Below are positions 1,079 through 9,656 of a stretch of DNA of 33,732 nt, one piece after another; positions within the stretch are counted from its first letter, which is position 1; each line of letters opens with the position of its first letter. Under the pieces are notes generated by a model. That model made no database searches. It saw only the letters and a list, made by a program, of their open reading frames with translations, and had not been told where the DNA came from. The DNA comes from Bacteroidales bacterium (GTDB taxonomy: Bacteria; Bacteroidota; Bacteroidia; Bacteroidales; DTU049), in assembly GCA_016937255.1 (NCBI GenBank), contig JAFGWG010000087.1:1-33732 (forward strand), read 5' to 3'. The position numbers were made by a program, and so were the translations under genes.

Positions 1079-2419
1079 TTAGCTGTCTAATCTTTTTTCC
1101 AATTTTTCTTTAAGTTCTTCATATCCTTCTTTTCCCAAAAGAGCAAACATGTTTTTCTTGTAGGCTTCTACTCCCGGCTGATCAAATGGATTTACCTGTA
1201 ATGTATAAGCACTTACCGCACATGAGAATTCAAAGAAATAAAGAAGCTCAGATATACTGTATTCTGTAATATCAGGAATTTCAATTTCAATCACAGGAAC
1301 ACCTCCGTCAGAATGTGCAAGTTGGGTAGCACTTTCAGCTTTTCGGTTTACAAAAGATAGACTTTTTCCTGCAAGATAGTTTAGTCCATCATTGTCGTCT
1401 TCAAATAGTGGAATTTCAATATCGCTTTTAAGGTCTTTTACTGTAATGAAGGTCTCGAAAAATACCCGCAAACCATCCTGAACAAATTGACCGAGAGAGT
1501 GCAAATCGCTTGTGAAAGTAAGTGACGCAGGGAAAATTCCCTTATGTTCTTTACCTTCACTTTCTCCAAAAAGTTGTTTCCACCATTCACTAATGGTACT
1601 CAGCGAAGGGTAGAAAGTGCTTTGCAGTTCAATGGGTTTACCCTTCTGATATAGAAGGTTGCGAATAGCTGCATATTTTAATGCAGGATTATCTTCCAGT
1701 TTCTGGTGCGAACAAAGATATGTTTCTGCGTCTGAAGCGCCTTTCAACATTTCTTCAATATTGAATCCTGCAAGAGCAAGAGGCACCAGCCCAACCGGTG
1801 TAAAAACAGAGAAACGTCCGCCGATATCATCATCAATAACAAAACTGCGAAGATTTTCTTTATCGCAAAGTGAGCGTAGAGCGCCTATTTTTTCATCGGT
1901 TATTGCAACAATGCATTTACGGCTTTCTGAGCCATGTTTCTTTTGCAAAAGTGCTCTTAATAATCTAAATGCAATGGCAGGCTCAGTGGTTGTTCCTGAT
2001 TTTGAAATAACCACCACGGCAAAATTTTTGTCTTCGAGAAAAGCCAACAATTGTTGATGGTAAGACGGATCAAGATGATGTCCAGCAAAGAGGATTTCGC
2101 GCTTGTTTTTATCTGGAAAATGATCTTTCAAGGCATCGTAAACAGCTTTTGTGCCTAGATACGATCCACCAATGCCCACAACAACAATATAATCGGGAGA
2201 AAAGGCATCGATATCTTTTTTGCAATCTTGTATTTCACTTAGAATTTTAGCATTCCCCAAACACTGAGTTGGCCAATGCAGCCAGCCGGTAAACTCAGAC
2301 CCACGCCCGTTTCTTTCCAAAAGCAATTTCGAAGCATGTATAATAAATGGATCGATTTGATTAAAATCTTCTTCAGTAAGAAAATCTTTTAGTAAATTTA
2401 CGTTGATTTTTGTACGCAT
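1079..2419 (-). CDS. pgi: Glucose-6-phosphate isomerase
   Basis: This 446-residue protein interconverts glucose-6-phosphate and fructose-6-phosphate in the cytoplasm, the second step of glycolysis. The length fits the short form of the enzyme found in Bacteroidota and Firmicutes rather than the roughly 550-residue enterobacterial form. The first SIS domain carries GIGGSYLGT at about 82-90. The phosphosugar-binding segment SKSGTTTEPA follows, then the family signature GGRFSVFTPVG around 200-210 and the active-site region GESEGKEHKG near 290. A C-terminal helix contains the usual YKKN. The start ATG at 2419 has a TATCTTTG promoter-like box just upstream. The downstream lipoprotein gene begins 2 nt after the stop. 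Confidence 0.96.
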   Translation of the reverse strand: MRTKINVNLLKDFLTEEDFNQIDPFIIHASKLLLERNGRGSEFTGWLHWPTQCLGNAKILSEIQDCKKDIDAFSPDYIVVVGIGGSYLGTKAVYDALKDHFPDKNKREILFAGHHLDPSYHQQLLAFLEDKNFAVVVISKSGTTTEPAIAFRLLRALLQKKHGSESRKCIVAITDEKIGALRSLCDKENLRSFVIDDDIGGRFSVFTPVGLVPLALAGFNIEEMLKGASDAETYLCSHQKLEDNPALKYAAIRNLLYQKGKPIELQSTFYPSLSTISEWWKQLFGESEGKEHKGIFPASLTFTSDLHSLGQFVQDGLRVFFETFITVKDLKSDIEIPLFEDDNDGLNYLAGKSLSFVNRKAESATQLAHSDGGVPVIEIEIPDITEYSISELLYFFEFSCAVSAYTLQVNPFDQPGVEAYKKNMFALLGKEGYEELKEKLEKRLDS

Positions 2420-2440: not shown

Positions 2441-2448
2441 CAAAGATA
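2441..2448 (-). promoter_or_regulatory. Candidate -7 element for pgi
   Basis: The minus strand reads TATCTTTG here, matching the Bacteroidota -7 consensus TAnnTTTG, and would place the transcript start about 15 nt before the pgi ATG. A TTTG lies only 14 nt further upstream, shorter than the usual spacing of about 19-21, so the -33 element is uncertain. A second TATCTTTG on the same strand at 2563-2570 is an alternative distal promoter. Confidence 0.45.
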
Positions 2449-2590
2449 CAAACTTATAAAAACAAAGATGCAGGAAAATTGTTTTCCCTGCATCCATGTG
2501 TTAAACCAATAAATTAACCAAAAACCTGAAAAATATCTTAGTATTTGTATTTTTCGCTGCTACAAAGATACGATACGGAAAAGCCATTCT

Positions 2591-2627
2591 GTGTTAAGTG
2601 ATGTTAAGAAGTGTTAACAAGTGTTAA
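2591..2627 (+). promoter_or_regulatory. Four direct repeats at exact 10-bp period; probable response-regulator operator
   Basis: The heptamer GTGTTAA occurs at 2591, 2611 and 2621, with ATGTTAA at 2601. All four are in the same orientation, start exactly 10 bp apart and are separated by 3-nt spacers. A fifth GTGTTAA lies at 2498. OmpR/PhoB-family regulators bind head-to-tail direct repeats of about 10-11 bp, and the gene pair immediately downstream encodes such a regulator, so autoregulation is the natural reading. The array ends 13 nt before the kinase ATG, so binding would interfere with, or closely control, transcription of the pair. It might also reach the divergent pgi. That the regulator binds here is inferred. 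Confidence 0.6.
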
Positions 2628-2640
2628 TTTGCAAAGAAAT

Positions 2641-4350
2641 ATGTCCAACAACAATCGCTTAAAATATATAATCATCATCCTTTCGGCATCTGCTATGCTT
2701 GGAATTGCTGGTGTACAATATTATTATTTGCGCACAGCAATCGATGCAAAAGAGGCTACTTTCGACCGAAATGTTAACGAGGCGGTTTCTCGTGTCATTT
2801 ATCAAATAGAAAAACATGAAATTGCAGTACAATTAAAAAGTAAGCTTCAGACATACTCCAAAGGAGTTGGGCTAATTAACCTTCTTGATTCTCTTAATCA
2901 AAGCCTGTTTCAATCGTTGCAGGAGATGGGAATTGATAGCATGGGTGAGGACTCGGTGGTGGATCTCACTCGAGAGCGAATTAGCTTTCAGATTGCCATG
3001 AACCGCTATGGCGAATACCAGCAGGGGCTCGATTCGTCCTTAAGGTATAATTCAATGGATACATTGGATGCGGATTCCTTGAAGCGGCTGCAACTTTTTG
3101 AAGCTATTCAAAACCGCCGATTGTTTACCGCTAAAAAGAATATACAATATTCAAAAGACGATAAAACCAATACCTACGAAGATAAGCAGGAGTTTTTACT
3201 TTATGATTCTCTATATACCAGTGTAGAACAATACCTGATGCGCACATATATTATTGGCGATGTAATGGAGGACTTTTTCAATATTAATCATTTTTCTCCT
3301 ATTGAAACACGTATTGATTCATCATTTATTGATTCTTTGATTGCATCTGAACTTTCTTTGAAGGGAATAAATATTGAGTATGACTTTGGAATTTATAGCC
3401 CGCGCAGAGATACAATTTTACTTCAAAAAACAGGTAAATACGAAGAGGAATTGCGCAACGAAGGTTATGGGTTCAGACTTTTTCCGAGCGATATGTTTTC
3501 TCCTCCTGAGTACTTACTAATTTATTTTCCCAAGAAAAGCAGCTATATTTATGCGGAGGTGTCCGGCATGTTTTTGCTCACGCTTGTATTGGTCGCAGTT
3601 ATTATATTCTCGTTTTTCTTTGTGGTCTTTTCATTACTCAGACAGAAAAAATTGTCGGAAATGAAAACAGATTTCATTAATAATATGACCCATGAAATAA
3701 AGACACCAATTTCAACTATATCACTAGCTTGTGAGGTTTTATCTGATAATCAGACTGAAATTTCGCCCGAAAAACAATTTGAATTCATTCATATTATTGC
3801 GCAAGAAAACAAGCGTCTGGCCGCCATGACAGAAAAGATATTGCAAACTGCAATTATTGAAAAAGGCCGAATGGGATTAAAAAGAGAAAAGCTTAATACA
3901 CATCATATCATACAACAGGCTGTTGAAAATATTCAGCTATTGGTGGAGCAGAAAGACGGCGTCATTGAACAAGATTTGTCAGCAGAAAGAACATTAATCA
4001 TGGCAGATTCCATACATTTTGAGAATGCAATTTTTAATCTTCTCGATAATGCAAACAAATACAGCGAAACACAACCTAAAATAGAAATCCAAACGAAAAA
4101 CATAAACAATAGCATATTGATTTCAATTAAAGACCATGGAATTGGGATTTCAAAAAAAGATCAGAAACGAATTTTTGAAAGACTCTATCGTGTGCCAACC
4201 GGAGATGTTCATAATGTTAAAGGGTTTGGTCTTGGGCTAAATTATGTTAAAGCTATTATTGAGGGTCACGAGGGAGAAATCACACTGCAAAGTGAACTTG
4301 GAAAAGGCTCAGAATTTATTATTAAAGTACCTTTGTATCATGCGAAATAA
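2641..4350 (+). CDS. Two-component sensor histidine kinase (RprX-like)
   Basis: A 569-residue membrane kinase that should autophosphorylate on histidine and pass the phosphate to the regulator encoded next. It has a membrane segment at about residues 8-28, an extracytoplasmic sensor region of roughly 280 residues with no recognised domain, and a second membrane segment near 310-335. The kinase core follows: an H-box with MTHEIKTPI (His351), an N-box (NAIFNLLDNANKYS), a G1 box (DHGIGIS) and a G2 box (GFGLGLNYVK). I chose the ATG at 2641. The in-frame GTG at 2611 lies inside the direct-repeat array and would put ten atypical residues before the membrane segment. The last 11 nt overlap the regulator gene. 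The architecture resembles the RprX family of Bacteroidota; the stimulus is unknown. Confidence 0.92.
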   Translation: MSNNNRLKYIIIILSASAMLGIAGVQYYYLRTAIDAKEATFDRNVNEAVSRVIYQIEKHEIAVQLKSKLQTYSKGVGLINLLDSLNQSLFQSLQEMGIDSMGEDSVVDLTRERISFQIAMNRYGEYQQGLDSSLRYNSMDTLDADSLKRLQLFEAIQNRRLFTAKKNIQYSKDDKTNTYEDKQEFLLYDSLYTSVEQYLMRTYIIGDVMEDFFNINHFSPIETRIDSSFIDSLIASELSLKGINIEYDFGIYSPRRDTILLQKTGKYEEELRNEGYGFRLFPSDMFSPPEYLLIYFPKKSSYIYAEVSGMFLLTLVLVAVIIFSFFFVVFSLLRQKKLSEMKTDFINNMTHEIKTPISTISLACEVLSDNQTEISPEKQFEFIHIIAQENKRLAAMTEKILQTAIIEKGRMGLKREKLNTHHIIQQAVENIQLLVEQKDGVIEQDLSAERTLIMADSIHFENAIFNLLDNANKYSETQPKIEIQTKNINNSILISIKDHGIGISKKDQKRIFERLYRVPTGDVHNVKGFGLGLNYVKAIIEGHEGEITLQSELGKGSEFIIKVPLYHAK

Positions 4351-5035
4351 TAAAATCTGCATATTGCTGGCCGAAGATGACGTGAATCTTGGCGTTATTT
4401 TGAAAAGCTTTCTTTCAGCCAAAGGCTTTGACGTTATTCTTACCCGTAACGGAAATGAAGCACTCGATCAATACAAAAGTACGTCTGGTATAGATCTAGC
4501 TTTAGTCGATGTAATGATGCCCGATAAAGATGGCTTTGCTCTTGCCAAAGACCTGAAATCAATGTCTGCCAATCTGCCATTAATTTTTTTAACCGCCAAA
4601 ACCATGCAAGATGATATTCTAAAAGGTTTTGAACTGGGTGCCGACGATTATATCACTAAGCCTTTTAGTATGGATGTACTACTAGCGCGCATTAATGCAT
4701 TGGTCAATAGATTGGTCAATGTTTCCCAAGAAAGTGATGAAAACATCAGCCTGGGTAAATTGGTTTTCGATTTCAGCAGACAAACGGTAAATAAAGGAAA
4801 TGAAGTGAAAAAACTTACCGCAAAAGAAGCCGAATTGCTTAAACTTCTAGTAGAAAACAAAAATAATATTACAGATAGAAAAACTGCATTAGACCTAATT
4901 TGGGGCAATGATGATTATTTTAGCTCCCGAAGCATGGACGTGTATATCACTCGCTTACGTAAGGTCTTAAAAATGGATGAAAATATAGAATTGATGAATA
5001 TTCACGGCCGCGGTTATAAACTTATGTGCAATTAA
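4340..5035 (+). CDS. OmpR/PhoB-family response regulator (RprY-like)
   Basis: A 231-residue cytoplasmic DNA-binding regulator. The receiver domain (about 1-120) has the acidic pocket EDD at 12-14, the phosphoacceptor Asp57 in LVDVMMP, Thr85 and the conserved Lys107 in ITKPF. The winged-helix domain (about 130-231) ends with the recognition and wing segments SMDVYITRLRKVL and GRGYKL. The start ATG at 4340 overlaps the kinase stop, giving MRNNKICILLAEDD as a normal receiver beginning. Longer in-frame starts lie inside the kinase gene and make no family sense. Overlap with the kinase implies coupled translation and a cognate pair. The 10-bp direct repeats at 2591-2627 are its likely binding site. 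Confidence 0.95.
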   Translation: MRNNKICILLAEDDVNLGVILKSFLSAKGFDVILTRNGNEALDQYKSTSGIDLALVDVMMPDKDGFALAKDLKSMSANLPLIFLTAKTMQDDILKGFELGADDYITKPFSMDVLLARINALVNRLVNVSQESDENISLGKLVFDFSRQTVNKGNEVKKLTAKEAELLKLLVENKNNITDRKTALDLIWGNDDYFSSRSMDVYITRLRKVLKMDENIELMNIHGRGYKLMCN

Positions 5036-5647: not shown

Positions 5648-7084
5648 ATGAATAAGATAATTCCGGCTATCCTTTTTATATGCCTCTTTGCCAGTACCTT
5701 GTTTTCACAAGAAATTCCAGGCTATAAAATTGACATTAAAGTCAAAAACCTCAAGGATACATCTGTTTATTTAGGTTATTACTTCGGAAAATACCAGTAT
5801 ATCCGCGATACTGTACAACTCGATGCAAATGGAGAAGGTGTTTTTGAAACCACTGACACTGTTGGCGGAGGTATTTATTTTATTGTATTACCCAGTAAAA
5901 AGTATTTCGAAATTTTACTTGATCGCGAACGCACGTTTTATGCAGAATGCGATACCGGAGATGTAACCTCCAGCCTAAAAGTAAAAGGAAGCAAGGATAA
6001 TATTGCATTTGCTGAATACCAAAAATATATAGCAGAAAAAGGAAAAGAGATCGAAGCATTAATGCCCATTTATAATAAAATAAAAGATGGAGACAATAAA
6101 GACTCCATCGATTTAATGACCAAGAAAATGCAATTCATAAACGAAGAGGTAGTTGATTATAAAGAAAAATTCATTAAAAAATATCCCGAATCATTTCTCT
6201 CAGTGGTTTTCAAAGCCTCGAAAGAACCTGAAATGGCTGAAACACCACTCAAACCAGATGGCACCAAAGATTCGATTGCAGAATATCAGTATTATAAATC
6301 TCATTTCTGGGATGAAATTGATTTGACAGACGACAGACTTCTACGCACCCCTGTCTTAAACAATAAAATAGATCAGTATTTCAATAAAGTAATTGCTCAG
6401 ATACCCGACACCATTATTTCTGAAGTTGATAAAATTATTGAAATGTCTCGACCGAATAAAGAGGTTTTCAAATATGTGGTTTGGTATCTAACACACAATT
6501 ATGAAACATCTCACGTGATGGGATTTGATGCAATATTTGTTCATATAGTAGACTATGTATATCGCGTAGGTGATGCGTTTTGGGTGTCGGAAAAAGTCCT
6601 TCAAAAAATTATTGAGCGGGCTGATGCATTAAAACCAAATCTGATTGGTGCAATTGCGCCAAATCTAATTCTGCTAAATACTGAAAACAAACTTGTGCCT
6701 ATGCATGCAGTACCTGCAGAATACATGATTATTTATTTTTGGTCATACGACTGCGGTCACTGTGCTAAAGAAACACCACGTTTGGTGGAATATTATAATG
6801 AAGTTAAAGATACCTTTGATCTAAAAGTGTATGCAGTTTGCACCGACACTAGTATTACCAAATGGCAACAGACGCTGGAAGAAAAGAAAATGGGAGATTT
6901 CATCAATGTAAATGGCACACGTAGTGCTTTAGGAAATTTTCATGATCTATACGATATTTATTCAACCCCTGTAGTATATTTGGTAGATCGAAAAAAACGC
7001 ATCATTGCCAAAAGAATTCCTGTCGAAAGTATTGGTACTTATTTAGATCATTATCGAAAAGATCCTTTGTTCGACGTTGAATAA
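5648..7084 (+). CDS. Exported thioredoxin-like protein, DUF4369/DUF5106 type
   Basis: A 478-residue protein with a signal peptide ending near residue 20 (FASTLFSQE), so it probably works in the periplasm or at the outer membrane. Residues from about 25 to 115 form the beta-rich DUF4369-type N-domain (DTSVYLGYYFG... VYLG pattern). A helical middle region of DUF5106 type spans about 120-330. The C-terminal redoxin domain has the active-site motif CGHC (Cys369, Cys372) in a FWSYDCGHCAKE context and the cis-proline segment STPVVYLVD near 440. It is likely a TlpA/ResA-like thiol-disulfide oxidoreductase; its substrate is unknown. The start is 30 nt after the DUF5063 stop and a weak TAATATTTG box sits between them, so joint transcription is possible. 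Confidence 0.88.
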   Translation: MNKIIPAILFICLFASTLFSQEIPGYKIDIKVKNLKDTSVYLGYYFGKYQYIRDTVQLDANGEGVFETTDTVGGGIYFIVLPSKKYFEILLDRERTFYAECDTGDVTSSLKVKGSKDNIAFAEYQKYIAEKGKEIEALMPIYNKIKDGDNKDSIDLMTKKMQFINEEVVDYKEKFIKKYPESFLSVVFKASKEPEMAETPLKPDGTKDSIAEYQYYKSHFWDEIDLTDDRLLRTPVLNNKIDQYFNKVIAQIPDTIISEVDKIIEMSRPNKEVFKYVVWYLTHNYETSHVMGFDAIFVHIVDYVYRVGDAFWVSEKVLQKIIERADALKPNLIGAIAPNLILLNTENKLVPMHAVPAEYMIIYFWSYDCGHCAKETPRLVEYYNEVKDTFDLKVYAVCTDTSITKWQQTLEEKKMGDFINVNGTRSALGNFHDLYDIYSTPVVYLVDRKKRIIAKRIPVESIGTYLDHYRKDPLFDVE

Positions 7085-8139: not shown

Positions 8140-8643
8140 ATGACCAGATCAGAATACAACAATTGCGTAGATGATTATTCAGATGCCATTTTCCGTTTTA
8201 TTAGGAAAAGTCTGAATGACGAAGATGATGCAGCCGATATTGTGCAGGAAGCTTTTATGCGATTGTGGGAAAAAGTAGAATCAGTCAGCTATGATAAAGT
8301 AAAATCGTATTTGTTCACTTCAGCATATCATATTATGATTGATTTCATTAGAAAACGGAAAAAGATTGTAGCCGAAAAAGACAGCGGCGACGTTTTCATG
8401 GATGAAAAATACGGTTCCTACGATGCAGACATGAATATAGATTTGAAATCGGTTCTCAATGAGGCGCTGTCGCGTTTACCCGAAATTCAGCGAAGTGTGA
8501 TTTTACTACGCGATTATGAGGGGTATTCGTATCAAGAAATCGGAGAAGTTTGCAAATTGAATGAAAGCCAGGTAAAGGTTTATATATATCGAGCCCGACT
8601 CACTCTGCAAAAATATCTGAAAAACGTGGATTTGGTAATTTAA
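8140..8643 (+). CDS. ECF-type RNA polymerase sigma factor
   Basis: A 167-residue sigma-70 factor of the extracytoplasmic-function group. Region 2 spans about 10-80 and shows the typical DAADIVQEAFMRLWEK helix and the SYLFTSAYHIMIDFIRKRKK segment that contacts the -10 region. Region 4 spans about 105-160, with LPEIQRSVILLRDYEGYSYQEIGEV and the helix-turn-helix NESQVKVYIYRAR. There is no region 1 or 3, as expected for this group. The gene is followed 11 nt later by a membrane anti-sigma-like gene and then an outer-membrane barrel gene, which is the usual Bacteroidota envelope-sensing arrangement. The inducing signal is unknown. Confidence 0.94.
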   Translation: MTRSEYNNCVDDYSDAIFRFIRKSLNDEDDAADIVQEAFMRLWEKVESVSYDKVKSYLFTSAYHIMIDFIRKRKKIVAEKDSGDVFMDEKYGSYDADMNIDLKSVLNEALSRLPEIQRSVILLRDYEGYSYQEIGEVCKLNESQVKVYIYRARLTLQKYLKNVDLVI

Positions 8644-8654
8644 TAAAGCAAACG

Positions 8655-9656
8655 ATGATCAACAAAGACAACTATATAGAATACATTGTGGATTATTTCG
8701 ACGGGAATTTGTCGGATAATCAGCAAGAATCTCTTCTCTTATTTTTGGGTGAAAACCCTGAATATAAAGACGAATTTAACAATTATTCAGAAGCCATTGA
8801 AGATGGTGTTTTAGGCGAAGCCATTGAAACGCCAAAATCGCTAAAAGACACATTAAAAAGTATTCCCGAAACACATGCAAAAGCAAATAATGAAAAGCTT
8901 GTTGCATATATAGAAAATGATCTTTCAGCTGCTGAACGCAAAGAAGTAGAAAAAGCCTTGGTTGAGAACAGCGAAATGCAACGTTCATTATATTTATTAG
9001 AAAAAACTCGTTTTGAAGCAGACATAGATGTGGTTTTCCCACACAAATCTGCATTAAAACGTTATCTCATCCCTCCGTTTGTAAAAAGAACAGTCATCGC
9101 AGTTACTTCTGCAGCAGCCATTCTATTATTGTTCTGGAATATTATCGGCACCGGTAATACAAACCAAAGCAACCCGCAGCTTGTTTCTCAAATGTCGATA
9201 ATGACTCCTTTTAGAAATCACTTGAATTTTGCTCTTTCGGTAAACGATTCTGATGACCCTGATACGACAAAAACAAACAACAACAATGTTATCGTTACTC
9301 CTGGAAATCAAGAACCGGAAATTATACAAGGTATTCCTCTAATTGCTTCTGCAGAACAAGTTCCAGTAGAGGAAAAAGCTCCTCAAAGCATCAACGACGT
9401 TCGTACCGAATACCTTGAAATTTACGCGTACACAAAATATAAAATCAATGCAAATAATCCTGATGCCGAAGAAAAGAAAGAATCAACACTTGGCACATTT
9501 GCAGAATGGACAGCCTGGGCACGTCAAACAGTAAGCGGTGAAAAATCAATAAAAGATAATCCTGCAAACCAATTAACTGCTTCCGATATAAGTAATTTTG
9601 GCATCAGCACCCTTAGTAGAATTGCCGGAACCAATATTCCGCTAGCCATAAAATAA
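8655..9656 (+). CDS. Membrane-anchored anti-sigma-like protein
   Basis: A 333-residue protein with one membrane segment at about 145-165 (VIAVTSAAAILLLFW). The cytoplasmic N-terminal part contains two similar short helical modules: one around residues 10-45 (YFDGNLSDNQQESLLLFL, then NPEYKDEF) and one around 83-118 (YIENDLSAAERKEVEKAL, then NSEMQRSL). These resemble anti-sigma domains without the zinc-binding Cys/His set. The part after the membrane segment (about 165-333) is low-complexity and N/T/P-rich at first, with no recognised domain. Its position right after the ECF gene is the strongest evidence for the role: it should hold the sigma factor inactive until an envelope signal arrives. 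It lacks zinc ligands, as many Bacteroidota anti-sigma proteins do. Confidence 0.75.
   Translation: MINKDNYIEYIVDYFDGNLSDNQQESLLLFLGENPEYKDEFNNYSEAIEDGVLGEAIETPKSLKDTLKSIPETHAKANNEKLVAYIENDLSAAERKEVEKALVENSEMQRSLYLLEKTRFEADIDVVFPHKSALKRYLIPPFVKRTVIAVTSAAAILLLFWNIIGTGNTNQSNPQLVSQMSIMTPFRNHLNFALSVNDSDDPDTTKTNNNNVIVTPGNQEPEIIQGIPLIASAEQVPVEEKAPQSINDVRTEYLEIYAYTKYKINANNPDAEEKKESTLGTFAEWTAWARQTVSGEKSIKDNPANQLTASDISNFGISTLSRIAGTNIPLAIK

Follow-up and report, generated by a model that had tools for sequence, protein, structure and literature searches.

The DNA analysed here, hereafter the window (33,732 nt from a Bacteroidales bacterium), carries the glucose-6-phosphate isomerase gene pgi on the minus strand (1079..2419) and, facing away from it on the plus strand, genes for a histidine kinase with HisKA and HATPase_c domains in an RprX-like position (2641..4350), both assigned from domain or profile matches, and for an OmpR/PhoB-family response regulator with Response_reg and Trans_reg_C domains (4340..5035). 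The kinase-regulator pair is followed on the same strand by genes for a DUF5063 protein and a DUF4369/AhpC-TSA protein (5648..7084). The initial annotation had called the regulator RprY-like, which is a fair label inasmuch as RprY is its best-matching NCBIfam model, but the score of 277.8 bits lies under the 370-bit cut-off of that equivalog model (NF051850), as do the scores of the four other regulators scanned (277.6 to 352.9 bits). A second RprY-like kinase-regulator pair is encoded in the same genome (G000:C212; loci L102 and L339), with a paralogous regulator scoring 277.6 bits. Further along the window (8140-9656), an ECF-type sigma factor gene is followed by a gene with a sub-threshold match to a zinc-finger, anti-sigma-like domain.

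The intergenic region before the kinase gene contains four RTGTTAA heptamers with the core word GTTAA (2591..2627, plus strand). As described in the initial annotation, GTGTTAA starts at 2591, 2611 and 2621 and ATGTTAA at 2601, all in the same orientation and at an exact pitch of 10 bp, the last heptamer ending 13 nt 5' of the kinase start codon at 2641. With up to one mismatch allowed, the pair RTGTTAA-N3-RTGTTAA matched the window three times, every time inside the array, compared with a chance expectation of 0.21 on average, and three matches were reached in none of 100 window shuffles. The exact pair is found only three times in the 3.85 Mb genome (254 contigs), and all three matches are this array. 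The motif had also been put forward as a means of finding the regulon; in this genome the scan disclosed none beyond chance, and the array alone stands out. The pair with up to one mismatch occurs at 12 places versus 15 for a backward control, placing the 9 places other than the array at the level of chance, and scanning for three units with at most two mismatches returned 11 places, four of which are the array itself, versus 50 for the control. A further GTGTTAA at 2498, considered as a fifth site, is present but does not belong to the operator, since its position falls within the minus-strand RNA predicted below and the four g3 relatives shown have GATAAACC there instead.

Conservation of the array upstream of homologous pairs was assessed in a first set of 110 kinase loci (80 from named genomes and 30 from relatives), four of which were cut at contig ends and five of which were duplicates. 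At least two GTTAA words at a pitch of 10 or 11 bp were found on the kinase strand in 77 of the 101 unique upstream sequences; the opposite strand of these sequences contained no GTTAA pair at either pitch, and the best of the other 29 permuted pentamers reached 7 of 101. In a Bacteroidales set combining 60 further loci from across the order with the same 30 relatives' loci (90 in all, two of them cut), the array was present in 75 of the 88 usable loci and a tandem array was absent from 13; a later group of 20 loci comprised 15 with and 5 without an array. From their sequence resemblance, our guess is that three of the arrayless loci (L258-L260) come from gut-type Bacteroidales. Most Bacteroidales arrays have a pitch of 10 and most Saprospiria arrays one of 11, but neither preference is absolute (L023 and L043 at 10; L033 mixed). 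Because the letters between the words vary at constant pitch and strand, the pattern speaks for protein half-sites rather than for copied DNA. Same-orientation half-sites at 10-11 bp pitch, a linked regulator with receiver and Trans_reg_C domains, retention of the array before homologous kinase-regulator pairs and a fixed distance to a -7 box (see below) together support the original assignment of the array to the OmpR/PhoB-family type of operator, the linked regulator being its presumed binder. The recognition-helix region, R-S-M-D-V-Y-I-T-K-L-R-K or a close variant, is kept in 18 of 18 aligned regulators; since these include the arrayless paralogue and that of the arrayless locus L258, its retention is compatible with binding of the array but neither proves it nor discriminates.

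To define promoters, we used TAnnTTTG, the consensus of the Bacteroidota -7 box according to the portions of PMC7366714 available to us. At the 67 array-bearing loci of the first set outside the window's family, this box followed the last word at 27, 28 or 29 nt in 37, 13 and 3 instances, respectively. Among the 64 array-bearing loci of the Bacteroidales set outside the family, a kinase-facing box lay 27-30 nt past the array in 54 (35 of 12,800 in the null) and an away-facing box exactly 22, 32 or 42 nt before the array in 33 (52 of 12,800), both nulls being derived from shuffles in which letters were shuffled singly; with neighbouring offsets allowed, both boxes were present at 34 of the 64. 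The distances of 32 and 42 nt correspond to 22 nt plus one or two pitches, as would be expected if outer words had decayed, and at several such loci the gap is filled by one-mismatch words. Judged from these sequences, a two-sided promoter with a central array is a common design outside the window's family, and the kinase-facing box at 54 of 64 loci makes it likely that the regulator controls its own operon there, as had been proposed for the window.

Order-wide scans recovered the same two geometries. The kinase-facing arrangement, GTTAA-N5-GTTAA-N27-29-TAnnTTTG, was present in 156 of 295 Bacteroidales genomes (backward control, 28 by table count) and at no place in the window's own genome. 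The away-facing arrangement, TTAAC-N5-TTAAC-N22-TAnnTTTG, was present in 43 of 295 (backward control, 7 by table count), and its only occurrence in the own genome is this locus, on the minus strand. Thirty loci from the kinase-facing scan were examined, one per genome: 20 are kinase loci, and two of the 10 others precede homologues of the window's DUF4369/AhpC-TSA protein in two other genomes (39% over 458 aa and 41% over 406 aa). Kinase loci account for 7 of the 30 examined from the away-facing scan; one of them, L312, has the array reversed, at 22 nt, and directed towards the kinase itself. Taken together, the loci from the two scans support the array as the operator of this two-component family. 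In four genomes, a reversed array stands 22 nt from a -7 box at genes that by eye encode MoxR-type ATPases (L316, L324, L331 and L332). Two further arrays, of four words apiece, lie in genome G139 (L140 and L153); a -7 box stands at roughly the expected distance, and the fetched stretch gave no kinase match.

The window's family, sampled in 12 genomes of which one was cut at a contig end, provided 11 informative loci, and here the proposed control of the regulator's own operon found no support. A kinase-facing box at 27-30 nt was absent from all 11, even with one mismatch allowed, and in the window the stretch 2530-2640 contains no consensus -7 box facing the kinase. An away-facing box, in turn, stood exactly 22 nt from the array at 11 of 11 loci (six TAnnTTTG and five TTnnTTTG, the latter one mismatch away), compared with 13 of 759 for boxes with at most one mismatch at other single offsets. 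It reads TATCTTTG in five loci, TATTTTTG in one, TTATTTTG in four and TTACTTTG in one; in the window, TATCTTTG occupies 2563..2570 on the minus strand, 22 nt from the first GTTAA. The spacing stays at 22 nt although the intervening sequence differs among the loci, one of which (L117) retains two exact words only. With no kinase-facing box at 27-30 nt and an invariant away-facing one, the promoter that fits the array in this family is that of a divergent RNA.

Transcription from this promoter would yield a small RNA of about 100 nt (2458..2556, minus strand), the two ends of which are placed from the -7 box and a T-tract. The predicted intrinsic terminator consists of a hairpin (2466..2495, minus strand) and a T-rich tail extending to about 2457; its T-tract begins 100 nt past the -7 box. 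The fold of 2457-2560 has a z of -3.96. A second -7 box with the sequence TATCTTTG lies 3' of the terminator (2441..2448, minus strand) and presumably serves pgi. In its sequence, the unit has the hallmarks of a stand-alone small RNA, namely its own promoter of Bacteroidota type and an intrinsic terminator before the next gene. Of the 48 loci that have a phased away-facing box, 40 show this arrangement, a terminator being found by rule within 230 nt of the box (11 of 960 for shuffles), with the T-tract 85-149 nt downstream of it. At the remaining eight loci, L115, L241 and L255 have a terminator by eye, the promoters of L129, L246 and L250 open a protein gene, and L219 and L237 have no terminator by rule.

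Within the predicted RNA, comparison with relatives singles out a conserved box, GGTTTTTGGTTAA (2514..2526, minus strand), as the candidate pairing region. Its form varies across the 48 loci, being GGTTTTTGGTT in 15, TTTAGGGTTT in 5 and different elsewhere. Genera g1 and g3 largely share the block preceding the hairpin, CAGGTTTTTGGTTTA..TTGGTTTATC, and the g2 loci have TTTTAGGGTTTGAC in its place together with an unrelated hairpin; in relatives, this position is occupied by hairpins that differ in sequence. In a five-sequence alignment of g1 and g3, both sides had changed at 2 of the 10 pairs of the hairpin and at 1 of the 7 in a 5' helix; with a covariation term of +0.2, nil overall, the alignment adds little. 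A covariance model built from a 14-sequence alignment contained no base pair and was dropped. Scanning the window against Rfam produced no match at the gathering threshold and, at a lax setting, six sub-threshold matches (best E 0.2). We considered whether the own genome contains the RNA twice and rejected this: the box matches exactly at six sites, of which one belongs to the RNA and two are the candidate target leaders described next, and roughly 90 nt at each of the five non-RNA sites contained no terminator by eye.

The complement of the RNA box, AACCAAAAACC, occurs at 33 sites in five genomes of the family against 67 for a backward control and is thus rarer than the control, with no overall enrichment. 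We examined 30 of the 33 sites, four of which are the RNA locus itself. At eight of the 26 others, the word is followed after 0-9 nt by the ATG of a protein that carries an N-terminal signal sequence, six of these proteins having a lipobox (both features called by eye), and one further site precedes a weak ORF. This amounts to 9 of 30 sites, compared with 1 of 27 for a single permuted control word (Fisher p 0.013, under a 12-nt rule set after the sites had been seen). In the own genome, two complementary leaders adjoin the start codons of exported lipoproteins; of 59 one-mismatch box sites there, 24 were examined, none lying within 12 nt of such a start and one lying at 14 nt. The word adjoins the start of the own-genome DUF4349 lipoprotein (C44) and of a DUF4349 homologue in G010 (44%), and it also stands next to the start of a more distant homologue in G255 (27%; outside the domain scan), a genome in which no away-facing box was recognised, a point that counts against these targets. 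A second pair of homologues with the word next to the start is shared by G007 and G295 (34%). The RNA sequence at 7 of the 48 loci includes TTCAT-N-GGTTTTTGGTT, which is complementary to such a leader together with its start codon.

When 131 gene starts of the own genome were ranked by duplex energy with the RNA, the two candidate targets came first (-25.6 and -22.2 kcal/mol), followed by a third at -22.0; as the loci supplying these starts had been chosen beforehand by their complementarity, and many starts besides the two were automatic calls, this ranking is weak evidence. The order-wide scan for AACCAAAAACC before ATGAA found matches in 81 of 295 genomes; we did not treat it as a test, since antisense copies of the RNA locus match as well. 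Behind the sites of 30 loci examined from that scan lie 17 ORFs of at least 100 aa, 14 of them exported-looking by eye. Such leaders may be generic for exported proteins, with the words common for other reasons, and these sequence matches are no more than suggestive of an RNA whose box pairs with leaders of exported-lipoprotein mRNAs and represses them.

The reading that we favour, and regard as probable overall, is that the array is the regulator's operator and drives a divergent small RNA whose box pairs with lipoprotein leaders. Head-to-tail dimers of the response regulator, whose gene lies 1.7 kb downstream, would occupy the four words as their half-sites. At most Bacteroidales loci examined, the promoter region of the array faces the kinase-regulator operon, with about half of them also facing a divergent transcript; in the window's family, where the divergent promoter is the only one to keep a fixed geometry, the array would most likely activate the minus-strand RNA of about 100 nt, running from about 2556 to 2458 and ending, short of pgi, at the intrinsic terminator. 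Pairing of its conserved box, GGUUUUUGGUU, with AACCAAAAACC leaders that adjoin start codons would then keep exported lipoprotein mRNAs from being translated, which would constitute an envelope-control loop. The array and its conservation, the fixed spacings, the -7 boxes, the terminator and the conserved box are read from sequence and comparison; binding of the array by the regulator, activation and production of the RNA are, in this scheme, what we infer from geometry and conservation, and the mRNA targets with their repression are suggestive only. Counting against the scheme are the five of 11 family boxes that are off consensus, the homologous loci that lack a tandem array, the variable form of the RNA box, the reversed array of L312 and the protein genes opened at L129, L246 and L250.

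Plain autoregulation, under which the array would control the kinase-regulator operon only, either by activation or as a repressor site over its leader or start, and the minus-strand features would be incidental, is an unlikely account of this locus. It would agree with the position of the array, which adjoins the kinase start at all 11 family loci, with the fixed kinase-facing box at the 54 of 64 loci from other families, and with a report that P. gingivalis RprY, suspected to act as a repressor, shifted its own promoter in an EMSA (PMC3646045, in the portions available). Moreover, a one-mismatch kinase-facing box is found 107-109 nt before the kinase ATG at L106-L109, inside the stretch antisense to the RNA; the window's own lies at 107 nt, a distance shared with L107-L109, and if this box were the kinase promoter, the array would sit in the kinase leader. 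Against this, the family lacks the box at the 27-30 nt used elsewhere, and the distance from the last GTTAA to the ATG varies from 18 to 14 to -2 nt, the last of these overlapping the start codon, whereas the minus-strand box is fixed at 22 nt throughout. The kinase is accordingly not supported as the target of the array in this genome.

The minus-strand unit could instead be a pgi leader with an attenuator, the regulator tuning pgi through the leader terminator, but we consider this very improbable. Although pgi is found in the fetched stretch at 24 of the 48 loci with a phased away-facing box, it has no match at the g2 loci or the other remaining loci, at many of which the fetched upstream flank is short; four g2 loci with enough sequence and no pgi match upstream keep a hairpin at this place (three by rule and L115 by eye), and in the window the second -7 box separates the terminator from pgi. 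Least probable of all is that the array is bound by another regulator, such as that of the paralogous pair, or is a repeat with no regulatory role. The paralogous regulator does score like the window's against RprY and has a similar recognition-helix region, but no array precedes its operon in the stretches examined, and the array accompanies the present operon in 77 of 101 upstream sequences with its strand, pitch and promoter distances fixed.

Operators of the PhoB/OmpR type, such as the pho box and the OmpR sites of E. coli, consist of same-strand half-sites at a pitch of 10-11 bp bound by head-to-tail winged-helix dimers. The window array resembles them in the orientation and pitch of its half-sites and in its proximity to a promoter, and differs in its word, GTTAA, and in that its distance from the promoter is either 27-30 nt or 22 nt, according to orientation. 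At E. coli ompC/micF, OmpR sites lie between a gene and a divergent small RNA; likewise, a single array here lies between a gene and a predicted divergent, antisense-type small RNA that would act on envelope mRNAs, although the phylum and sequences are different and the neighbouring gene is that of the regulator's own kinase. Among Bacteroidales small RNAs, FopS of B. thetaiotaomicron consists of a single-stranded portion with a terminator behind it and base-pairs close to the start codons of its target mRNAs, much as predicted here (PMC11697453 and PMC7366714, portions available); unlike in the present case, the same portions describe no two-component regulator operator for FopS or GibS. Identity of the RNA with FopS/GibS was rejected, as the FopS consensus printed in PMC11697453 lacks this box, and MasB of B. 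thetaiotaomicron, which the available text places in the Cur regulon, was set aside as a different case.

RprXY of B. fragilis likewise has its kinase and regulator genes side by side (PMC3646045, portions available), and RprY is the best NCBIfam match of the window's regulator, which stays under the equivalog cut-off. Neither PMC3646045 nor PMC6032018 uses the words motif, consensus or binding site in the text available. Within the open-access text available on RprY/RprX, OmpR-family repeats and Bacteroides small RNAs, we found no description of this operator or RNA, and no binding motif for this regulator family. The word, pitch, orientation and two promoter distances would provide a readable operator code for the family across Bacteroidota, predicting regulon members in other genomes, and the predicted RNA would be a candidate small-RNA family tied to that operator, with named candidate targets.

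More tentatively, and with somewhat less than even confidence, a Bacteroidota-wide envelope circuit can be envisaged in which RprY-like regulators acting on two-sided GTTAA promoters would fire their own operon and, in Bacteroidales, a divergent RNA that shuts down lipoprotein mRNAs; it would be the counterpart of the enteric sigma-E and OmpR small RNAs. At a minimum of seven loci from Sphingobacteria, Saprospiria and Chitinophagales (L036, L042, L050, L056, L066, L068 and L088; L042 and L056 by eye only), the gene opened by the away-facing promoter encodes an exported protein and would there take the place of the RNA, and a few Bacteroidales loci, among L129, L246, L250, L270 and L275, have the same layout. 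Several of the exported proteins compared are mutually related, and some have a type IX secretion tail or PDZ domains. Two genomes of family f101, G111 (L414) and G294 (L415), have two and three box complements before ATGAA and three and four operator-plus-promoter sites, respectively, with no kinase match for G111; the RNA has possibly been multiplied in both.
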